Origin: a virus
Direction: 5' to 3' (one strand)
Length of the DNA: 29,158 nucleotides
IMG/VR virus record: IMGVR_UViG_3300034190_000533
Location: 1 to 29,158 of that record
In this document: positions 3,429 through 5,673 of the stretch, one piece after another
How the letters are laid out: the number at the start of each line of letters is the position of its first letter
Numbering within the stretch: position 1 is the stretch's first letter
Made by a program: the position numbers and the translations under genes
Notes under the pieces: generated by a model
The model's input: the letters and a program-made list of their open reading frames with translations, nothing else
Told to the model about the DNA's origin: nothing
The model's database searches: none

Positions 3429-3601
3429 TTTTATTCGACAAGTTCGAAGACGCTCTGGAGGAAGCCCAGTGGTGCGCCAAGACAGACCGGGCGATTTACT
3501 ACATTGTTCTCTGGAAAGGGCGGTTCAGGGTAAGCAGGAAGCGCCGTATTCAGCTCACCAGAGCGCGGCTCGAAGTAGGATTCGGGGAGGCAGGGAAATG
3601 A
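3425..3601 (+). CDS. Small basic hypothetical protein (58 aa)
   Basis: This gene sits in a stop/start chain: its ATG overlaps the previous TGA (3425-3428) and its own TGA overlaps the next ATG (3598-3601). The N-terminal half is acidic and aromatic, the C-terminal half is Arg/Lys-rich (WKGRFRVSRKRRIQLTRARL). The coupling on both ends is good evidence for translation. It could bind nucleic acid, but no family is recognised. Confidence 0.65.
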   Translation: MILFDKFEDALEEAQWCAKTDRAIYYIVLWKGRFRVSRKRRIQLTRARLEVGFGEAGK

Positions 3602-3795
3602 GCGACGGATCATGGGCTGGCGGCAAAGGATCGAAGCCGAGAAAGGTCGACCGAAATAAGTTCGATGATAATTACGACCGGATATTCGGCAAGAAAAAAC
3701 CGGGTGAAAATGTGGAAAATTGCAAAGAAGGCGAAGAGCTGGGGCTTAAATTATTGCAATCCGTAAAAGAAATGAAGGCGCAGAAAAGTGATTAA
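3598..3795 (+). CDS. Small lysine-rich hypothetical protein (65 aa)
   Basis: ATG 3598 is chosen over the longer upstream frame because GGGGAGG (3584-3590) precedes it and the ATGA overlap couples it to the 58-residue gene. The product is polar, rich in Lys, Gly and Asp, and probably disordered in its first half with a short C-terminal helix. Its stop lies 8 bp inside the following gene. Function unknown. Confidence 0.65.
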   Translation: MSDGSWAGGKGSKPRKVDRNKFDDNYDRIFGKKKPGENVENCKEGEELGLKLLQSVKEMKAQKSD

Positions 3796-4528
3796 GTATC
3801 ACGGAACGCCAATCGGCGGTAAAACAACAGACGCAGCGGAACTTCTTAGAGGTAGGCATGGGCTGGTAAGTATTGCGCATCCAGAGCAGTTAAATGTGGT
3901 TCTGGAGAACTGCCAATCTTTTGTTCTCGATAACGGGGCTTTCAGTGAGTGGAAGAAATCTGGAAGCGAGATTGACTTCGATGCTTATGCTGACTGGGTA
4001 AAGTCTCTCTATCGGCATCCGAATTTTGATTGGTGTTTAATTCCAGACAAGATCGACGGAACAGAGGAAGAGAATGTTCAGCTCGTTAATAAATGGCTCA
4101 GAATGGGCTTAAGAGCAAAAGGCGTTCCGATCTGGCATCTTCACGAGAGTTTGGAGTGGCTGGAATGGATGGTCGACCGATTCGAGTGGGTAGCAATCGG
4201 CAGTTCTGGGCAGTGGGCTACTCCGAACACAAAGGGATGGTGGGCGAGAATGGGTGAAGCAATGAGTGTTTGCTGCGACTCAGAAGGACGGCCAAGAGCT
4301 AAACTTCACGGCTTGAGAATGCTTGATCCGAGTATATTTACCAATCTGCCATTAGCATCTGCCGATAGCACTAATGCTGCCAGAAATAATAACCAGCTAA
4401 GTCGATTCGGTATGTACGCGCCGCCATCTGCCGGGCAGAGAGCGTCAAATATAGCGGCCAGAATTGAATCGTTTAACTCTGCTCCGGTCTGGCTGGGTAA
4501 AAAACAGCAATCTCTGGATCTCTTCTAA
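3788..4528 (+). CDS. Putative TGT-like/DpdA-like deazaguanine transglycosylase
   Basis: A 246-residue protein starting with GTG. It resembles a conserved phage family that I associate with tRNA-guanine transglycosylase folds, including the DpdA enzymes that put 7-deazaguanines into DNA. Motifs in barrel order are LDNGAF (47-52), DWCLIPDKIDG (81-91), WHLHES (116-121), VAIGSSGQW (135-143), LHGLRMLDP (173-181) and ASADST (190-195). Asp48 and Asp193 would be the candidate catalytic aspartates by analogy with DSGGF and the second TGT Asp. The CxCxxC-H zinc site of bacterial TGT is not visible. No queuosine-pathway genes (folE, queD, queE, queC) are in the window. GC is about 44% by hand count over 3901-4140. 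The fold is inferred by motif resemblance; base-exchange on DNA or tRNA is hypothesis. Confidence 0.5.
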   Translation: MIKYHGTPIGGKTTDAAELLRGRHGLVSIAHPEQLNVVLENCQSFVLDNGAFSEWKKSGSEIDFDAYADWVKSLYRHPNFDWCLIPDKIDGTEEENVQLVNKWLRMGLRAKGVPIWHLHESLEWLEWMVDRFEWVAIGSSGQWATPNTKGWWARMGEAMSVCCDSEGRPRAKLHGLRMLDPSIFTNLPLASADSTNAARNNNQLSRFGMYAPPSAGQRASNIAARIESFNSAPVWLGKKQQSLDLF

Positions 4529-4935
4529 TGATTAGCCCGCTGCTATGTGTCGCAATGGCGGTGTATTTTGAGGCCCGGGGAGAGCAGCAGATCGCCGGGC
4601 TGATAGCGGTCGCAGAGGTTATCGAAAATCGTGTTCAAGACTCTCGGTTCCCGGACGATCACTGCTCGGTCGTTAAGCAGGGGCGATACTGGGGCGGGCA
4701 TCCGATCAAGCACCAGTGTCAGTTCACGTTCTACTGCGACAGGAAGCCGGAGACGGTCAGAGACCATGAATCTTGGCGAACTGCTCTACTGGTAGCAAGT
4801 AAAGCGCTAAACGGTGAATTCGTCCCGGTAACACATGGGGCGACTCACTATCACGCGAAGTCGGTCAATCCGTACTGGTCTCACACCGGGGAACTGACAC
4901 AGGCCATCGGCGGGCATTTATTCTACAAACTGTAA
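4528..4935 (+). CDS. SleB-type cell wall hydrolase (endolysin candidate)
   Basis: A 135-residue protein matching the Hydrolase_2/SleB family, which cleaves peptidoglycan glycan strands. The hallmark is YFEARGE (13-19) with the presumed catalytic Glu15, followed by AEVIENRV, the Cys-containing QGRYWGGHPIKHQCQFTFYCD region, and the terminal THYHAKSVNPYW segment usual in the family. No signal peptide is evident, so access to the wall would need a holin. ATG 4528 shares one base with the preceding TAA. It lies far from the other lysis genes (21905-25717), so it may serve entry, or be one of two lysins. Confidence 0.85.
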   Translation: MISPLLCVAMAVYFEARGEQQIAGLIAVAEVIENRVQDSRFPDDHCSVVKQGRYWGGHPIKHQCQFTFYCDRKPETVRDHESWRTALLVASKALNGEFVPVTHGATHYHAKSVNPYWSHTGELTQAIGGHLFYKL

Positions 4936-4938
4936 TTG

Positions 4939-4947
4939 TGCTATACT
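4939..4947 (+). promoter_or_regulatory. Extended -10 promoter before the GIY-YIG/terminase block
   Basis: TGCTATACT (TGn plus TATACT at 4942-4947) lies just after the hydrolase stop. No good -35 is seen 17 bp upstream, as expected for an extended -10 promoter. The downstream leader shares GCAACGCT (4956-4963) with the leader of the scaffold promoter at 10661-10668. It also overlaps the alternative TTG start of the next gene, which argues against that start. Confidence 0.5.
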
Positions 4948-4979
4948 GCTATCAGGCAACGCTTGGGGCGGGGCCAGAT

Positions 4980-4996
4980 TTTGCGCGGGGTGCAAA
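4980..4996 (+). promoter_or_regulatory. Hairpin with Shine-Dalgarno in the loop, GIY-YIG gene
   Basis: TTTGCGC (4980-4986) pairs with GTGCAAA (4990-4996), with one G-T pair, around a GGG loop. The GGGG ribosome binding site is presented at the hairpin tip and the start codon begins at the stem foot. It could gate or enhance initiation. Confidence 0.5.
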
Positions 4997-5673
4997 TGAA
5001 TAGCTTTCCAGAACATCGAGTCGCCAGTATTGGTGGCTTAATTCCGTATGCGCTGAACTCTCGGCCGCATTCTGGCGCTCGTTTCGCCGCTCTTCCAGCT
5101 AACAGGGCTATATTGACTCCGCAGAAAGCGAGAGAGCTGGCTTGCCCGATTATCTACGGCTTATGCAATGGTGAGCGCGGCATCTTCTATGTCGGCAAGA
5201 CTACTAGACCAAAGCGCCGAATATATAACTATCTCAACCCGAGTCAGTGCCATAGTAAGGCTTTGGCTGAATATCTCAAAGAGAACCCGAACTTCCATGT
5301 GGTCGTTCTCGAAAAGAACCCGGAAGATATAAACGAGTCTGAGATGTTCTATATCCAGCAATATAAGGGATTGACGTTTAACATCGATCTAGTGGATTAC
5401 ACGATCTGGAGAGAACACAAGAGTGAGCCGTGGATGGCTGGGGTAGGGGTAAGATGCCCGAGTGATTATCTCATGTGGCAAGCGGCAAAAGCGGGCGGGG
5501 TTCCGATCAAAAAGGCATTTTCTCAGCATATTGAGATGCGAGAAAAAATGAGTAAAAAAGAGCGTATTTGCTTCGAAGTCGGGCTATACAAAGACTCTCA
5601 TCCCCAAGCCCAGAAAGTCATGCAGCAATGGTTCGACAGGTGTAAGCACGACCTACTCGAAGGGTTAATGTAA
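4996..5673 (+). CDS. GIY-YIG endonuclease-domain protein
   Basis: A 225-residue protein with a GIY-YIG nuclease domain: IIYGL (52-56), IFYVGKT (63-69), the arginine of RPKRRIYNYL (71-80) and a later glutamate in NESEMFYIQQY (113-123), the expected order of catalytic elements. The frame extends upstream to TTG 4936, but that lies inside the promoter, and ATG 4996 has a GGGG site 5 bp upstream. The C-terminal 90 residues are a separate basic region that could bind DNA. Position directly before the terminase genes suggests either a homing endonuclease or a nuclease that helps packaging, as seen for HNH proteins in other phages. Which one is not decided by the sequence. Confidence 0.85.
   Translation: MNSFPEHRVASIGGLIPYALNSRPHSGARFAALPANRAILTPQKARELACPIIYGLCNGERGIFYVGKTTRPKRRIYNYLNPSQCHSKALAEYLKENPNFHVVVLEKNPEDINESEMFYIQQYKGLTFNIDLVDYTIWREHKSEPWMAGVGVRCPSDYLMWQAAKAGGVPIKKAFSQHIEMREKMSKKERICFEVGLYKDSHPQAQKVMQQWFDRCKHDLLEGLM

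Follow-up and report, generated by a model that had tools for sequence, protein, structure and literature searches.

A gene in the viral record IMGVR_UViG_3300034190_000533 most probably encodes a singleton DpdA that would insert a preQ0-derived base into phage DNA by using host preQ0, a reading to which we assign a probability of roughly 85%. In this scheme, a transglycosylase with the TGT fold would take selected guanines out of phage DNA via an Asp nucleophile, and their place would be filled by a 7-deazaguanine base (preQ0, with dPreQ0 or the amide dADG as its final form), with the host queuosine pathway as the likely source of preQ0. The chemistry is presumably that of TGT, in which we take one Asp to attack the sugar and free the guanine while the other acts as base. 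As a whole, the sequence-only reading, which had proposed a DpdA/TGT-like enzyme, is supported, and the protein belongs to a known family, within which it is unremarkable.

The window, i.e., the whole stretch of DNA that was analysed, comprises the 29,158 bases of the record, which may be a genome fragment. The open reading frame is real (246 codons, GTG start) and the earlier observation is confirmed, as the coordinates given for it are right and the six motifs LDNGAF, IPDKIDG, WHLHES, IGSSGQW, LHGLRM, and ADST are all present in the order described. The gene and its surroundings are as follows:

3598–3795, + strand: small upstream gene, 65 aa from an inner ATG, with an 8-nt overlap with the dpdA start
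3774–3778, + strand: GAAGG, a possible ribosome-binding site as judged from the sequence, 9 nt before the GTG
3788–4528, + strand: dpdA-like gene of 246 aa with a GTG start, of the compact singleton type (phrog_887)
3929–3931, + strand: codon of Asp48, in LDNGAF; proposed general base
4364–4366, + strand: codon of Asp193, in ADST; proposed nucleophile
4528–4935, + strand: cell-wall hydrolase gene (PF07486), with a 1-nt overlap with the dpdA stop

The small upstream gene (3598–3795) had no Pfam or PHROG match, and its overlap with the dpdA start makes co-translation probable, while the cell-wall hydrolase gene is a neighbour outside the pathway. An ORF with a TTG start that encodes a GIY-YIG endonuclease (window 4936–5673) lies between the hydrolase and the terminase small subunit genes and resembles a homing endonuclease. 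Otherwise, the window is that of a tailed phage, with genes for the small and large terminase subunits, portal, head morphogenesis protein, and major capsid, followed by the tape measure and tail proteins and, after these, by a Sak-like annealing protein, a RecE-like exonuclease, SSB, and primase. No tRNA genes were found in the window.

The kinship with DpdA, which goes far past what chance would give, was borne out by blastp, in which the window protein matched the DpdA of Pantoea phage MED16 (E 4e−39), gp32 (DpdA) of Salmonella phage 7-11 (E 4e−35) and the DpdA of Seurat (E 4e−17). A tblastn search (E ≤ 1e−5) returned matches in 198 of 50,697 phage records, with identities of 57% for Pseudomonas phage Epa33, 46% for Salmonella phage BTP1, 40% for SEN1, and 36% for MED16, together with weaker matches to the DpdAs of Seurat, Vid5, and Dp-1. 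One short record from this family, OR850331.1 (1.7 kb), is named as a Staphylococcus phage, yet the identity of its dpdA match equals that of the Salmonella phage copies, and it is probably mislabelled or contaminated. In the profile search that had been suggested as a check, the PHROG scan matched phrog_887 (“queuine tRNA-ribosyltransferase”, E 3e−64, residues 1–231), whereas no Pfam family, including PF01702 (TGT), was matched at E ≤ 1, and the hhalign comparison of the compact DpdA family with host TGTs, for which the TGT profile was small and narrow, was not significant and left Asp193 unplaced. The sole NCBIfam match was far below the cut-off, and there was no PADLOC match. For MED16 DpdA, HHpred leads to a TGT structure, according to PMC8306585. 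Related loci (designated here by L numbers) were recovered from viral contigs (n = 45) and from bacterial genome contigs (n = 75), the latter by an alignment-based genome scan, the scan with the single protein having given no relatives. In two loci (L045:5260-5951 and L046:6001-6692) the dpdA frame ends after 114 codons and the match continues to residue 235, a frameshift that points to a broken gene or to an error in the assembly.

The AlphaFold2 model, based on an alignment of 26 sequences, had a mean pLDDT of 88.8 and a pTM of 0.86. When the 1000 chains ranked best by Foldseek were passed to VIA-align, all of the 50 matches listed belonged to the TGT family (Z 14.3–15.2), among them Cap10 (15.2), archaeosine TGT (14.8), Zymomonas TGT (14.7), and human TGT (14.5), with rows within 1 Z counted as tied. 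In a library of viral structures (E ≤ 0.001), the 27 matches comprised eight that bear the name queuine or queuosine tRNA-ribosyltransferase and 19 that were uncharacterized or unnamed. A TGT-type barrel is supported for the modelled protein; the barrel predicted from the motifs was upheld by both AlphaFold2 and VIA-align, and a barrel-less model, named beforehand as the contrary outcome, did not arise. Plain Foldseek placed tryptophan synthase alpha on top, so the TGT assignment rests on VIA-align together with sequence homology. This ranking, like the weak phmmer matches to beta-glucosidases, would agree with an unrelated TIM-barrel reaction that received the TGT name by transfer; such an enzyme is most improbable in view of the direct homology in sequence to DpdAs from phages whose DNA is modified, the linkage to preQ0 genes in relatives, and the uniform TGT identity of the 50 VIA-align matches listed. 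The weak beta-glucosidase, serpin, and other matches among PDB sequences (phmmer and profile search) were dropped as unrelated. The first VIA-align row suggests another role, a Cap10-like action on a 7-deazaguanine-tagged protein that would serve as counter-defence against type IV CBASS, as Cap10 is described in PMC11996544 as a TGT-family enzyme remodelled to bind the deazaguanine-tagged N terminus of a protein. Cap10 is nevertheless tied with TGTs at 14.7–14.8, the similarity is one of fold only (11% identity), and both the preQ0 synthesis linkage and the DNA measurements in homologues indicate DNA, which leaves this role barely credible.

The two Asp residues proposed as catalytic are near-invariant in the family (Asp at position 48 in 120 of 121 aligned sequences, at position 193 in 119 of 121), and two His residues, H117 and H174, show no variation in the alignment. 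Asp48 and Asp193 lie opposite the Asp of LDSGAF and of CDSSSW, respectively, in Seurat DpdA (blastp), and Asp48 also lies opposite the Asp of TDSGGF of TGT in the non-significant hhalign alignment; H174 is aligned with a His of Seurat DpdA. By analogy with TGT we take Asp48 to be the general base and Asp193 the nucleophile. No CxCx2C..H zinc motif was detected at any of the 123 family loci or in the DpdAs of Seurat, Vid5, MED16, and 7-11. The lack of a zinc site, which had been taken to mark a compact variant, is thus real but no peculiarity of such a variant, as the phage DpdAs examined lack the site as a rule and its absence is therefore normal here; accordingly, zinc loss as the sign of a new variant was rejected.

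The fold is also that of a TGT, and databases call the family queuine tRNA-ribosyltransferase, as would be expected of a phage TGT that adjusts translation by altering the wobble guanine in host tRNAs. Host TGTs carry the zinc site in all 15 readable cases (the 16th was unreadable with the motif used), which the window protein does not, and a TGT of their own was present in all 16 dpdA-bearing genomes searched among the 75 genome loci. In addition, the dpdA of 9g did not replace E. coli tgt according to PMC6884629, and the DNA of phages carrying relatives is modified (PMC8306585 and PMC6884629). An action on tRNA is highly unlikely in the light of these points, and tRNA editing as the main role was rejected because the zinc site is missing, host TGTs are present and the phage DNA of homologues is modified. 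Where the sequence-only reading had left a choice between phage DNA and tRNA editing, the first is favoured, since two homologues come from phages with dADG in their DNA (about 0.13% of G in MED16, PMC8306585, and about 0.02% of G in Salmonella phage 7-11, PMC6884629), and DNA is the likely substrate also in view of the failure of 9g dpdA to replace tgt and of the base being lost from CAjan without dpdA (same sources).

The likeliest benefit of a DpdA acting on DNA would be that certain DNA sites are hidden from nucleases, which is the weakest step of the scheme. PMC8306585 reports that MED16 DNA is cut by named enzymes with G in their sites, which makes bulk protection from restriction by such rare marks doubtful, and the proposal that the modification serves to evade restriction goes beyond the evidence for the compact branch. 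An unlikely alternative is that the compact DpdA places rare, site-specific amide-deazaguanine marks for signalling or masking, or acts on the deazaguanine tag of type IV CBASS; the branch would then not coat phage DNA, and in the second, bolder version it would be a counter-defence cousin of Cap10. The option of rare marks fits the range of 0.02–0.13% of G in 7-11 and MED16.

No preQ0 gene was visible in this phage, so that host preQ0 would be drawn on. Dedicated searches for QueC and FolE in the window, in a record that may be a fragment, gave no match, and PHROG scans of 26 of its ORFs detected no preQ0 synthesis, PTPS, Vut_1, or radical SAM genes. Within the reach of these searches, the claim that the biosynthesis genes are absent from the window holds, and a preQ0 operon inside it was rejected. 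The idea of an outside supply is likewise supported, given that QueC was strong (E ≤ 1e−65) in 37 of 40 genomes with a dpdA locus sampled from the 75 genome loci; of the remaining three, one had a partial match (E 4e−19) and two actinobacterial MAGs (L118, L125) had weak matches only. The best genome matches to the window protein were Marinobacterium (67%) and an Oceanospirillaceae MAG (62%), which hint at a marine gamma-proteobacterial host, and the phage itself is probably marine.

In relatives, preQ0 genes do occur next to the compact dpdA, as seen when ORFs were called within 5 kb of dpdA at 123 loci. L016, whose dpdA is 77–78% identical to that of the window, has the run dpdA-queD-queC-queE, where the QueE-like radical SAM gene had a Pfam score of 28.4, just below the cut-off of 29.5; its QueD was matched by 19 of 50,697 phage records. 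In L031, dpdA, queE-like, queC, queD, and folE follow one another in a single run, and each of the four families had a Pfam match, so that a full preQ0 set accompanies a singleton-type compact dpdA (L031:6001-9157). QueD-like genes overlap dpdA in L016, L017, L026, L030, and L077, and another one occurs in L036, the loci with preQ0 neighbours including the near-identical pairs L016/L017 and L036/L037. In whole viral records, PTPS was found in 7, QueC in 3, and Vut_1 in 2 of 44 (the 45 viral loci without L008), and GTP cyclohydrolase I in 1 of 45 (the same 44 plus the window). The records of L004 and L015 (32–34 kb), whose dpdA is 98–99% identical to that of the window, had no match to PTPS, QueC, Vut_1, or GTP cyclohydrolase I; gene absence in viral records is weak evidence, as most of them are fragments.

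In a tree of 118 proteins, from which L002, L008, and L015 were omitted as near copies of the window, the window falls in a clade of 12 rows (100/97) inside a clade of 19 (100/99) that also holds L016 and L017, and several branches are long and unsure. Its near kin thus include genes that sit in preQ0 runs, and dADG has been measured in phages that carry more distant kin. Loci with preQ0 neighbours were no more clustered on the tree than in shuffles, 221 of 500 of which scored as low, and the same held for those with transporter neighbours (500 of 500); both results count against the reading proposed here. Two further kinds of neighbour were observed: a conserved protein of about 82 aa beside or overlapping dpdA at 15 of 123 loci, mostly Pseudomonas (L092:9732-10004, L027:5756-6004), is a possible dpdA partner, and DNA cytosine-methyltransferase-like genes within 5 kb of dpdA at 21 of 123 loci (L050:6653-8830, L018:6346-7305) suggest DNA-modification islands.

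A gene for a YhhQ-like (Vut) transporter, which is of the preQ0 type, adjoins dpdA in L102, L106, and L123, overlaps it in L038 and is one gene away in L044. The Vut protein of L102 matched 20 phage records, or 18 after removal of two GenBank/RefSeq duplicates, and in 12 of these 18, from several unrelated phage groups, the Vut gene has a compact dpdA as its direct neighbour. In the 12 (L145–L156: PEAT2, Tbat1_6, ECO111 5-P, Phc, Opt-719, AB3P2, RCIP0319, Opt-79, Phleasolo, Sadiya, LHE71, and Lg3), the genes are for the most part annotated as hypothetical. The six records lacking dpdA are a single mEp021-like lineage with the weakest matches (L157–L162), in which a distant Vut-like gene lies beside annotated DNA methyltransferase genes and may take up a different compound or be involved in another modification. 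A VUT gene is also included in the public record of Vid5, and Hutinet et al. (PMC6884629) noted that YhhQ is encoded by some phages without correlation with a group.

The presence of compact dpdA in preQ0 runs or beside transporter genes argues that the branch kept 7-deazaguanine chemistry, and this linkage is the one mildly new point; we found no mention of a compact dpdA adjoining YhhQ or a full preQ0 operon in the literature covered, which includes few subscription papers. Both the full run in L031 and the transporter adjacency bear on the possibility of functional divergence among singleton DpdAs considered in 2019 (PMC6884629), and cultured phages such as PEAT2, Phc, AB3P2, Sadiya, and Lg3 would allow the question to be tested directly.

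Further phage DpdA types were reportedly described in a 2023 paper. DpdA2 lacks the conserved His196 of DpdA and was missed by a 9g DpdA query (PMC6884629), and H174, which may correspond to His196, would speak against placing the window protein there. Singleton-DpdA phages are the third group of Hutinet et al. 2019, by definition without preQ0 genes, and their DpdAs cluster by host clade (Mycobacterium, gamma-Proteobacteria), as given in PMC6884629; MED16 and 7-11 likewise have no preQ0 genes according to PMC8306585 and PMC6884629. The window protein resembles these singletons (35–38% identity to 7-11 and MED16 over most of its length) and shares with them the Asp pair, the absence of the zinc motif and a record in which no preQ0 gene was seen, but unlike group 3, its phage is probably marine and its near kin L016 and L017 carry preQ0 genes. 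To the long DpdAs of CAjan, 9g, Seurat, and Vid5 it is homologous, with the Asp pair and H117/H174 kept and the zinc motif absent in both, but it has 246 aa rather than 306, and the long dpdA has a full preQ0 set next to it in Seurat and preQ0 genes as neighbours in Vid5. With bacterial and archaeal TGTs it has the fold in common (Z 14.3–14.8 over 212–230 residues), yet it has no Pfam TGT match and no zinc motif and is about 140 residues shorter. With Cap10 of type IV CBASS, which binds a deazaguanine-tagged protein (PMC11996544), the likeness (Z 15.2, 11% identity) is limited to the TGT-family fold.
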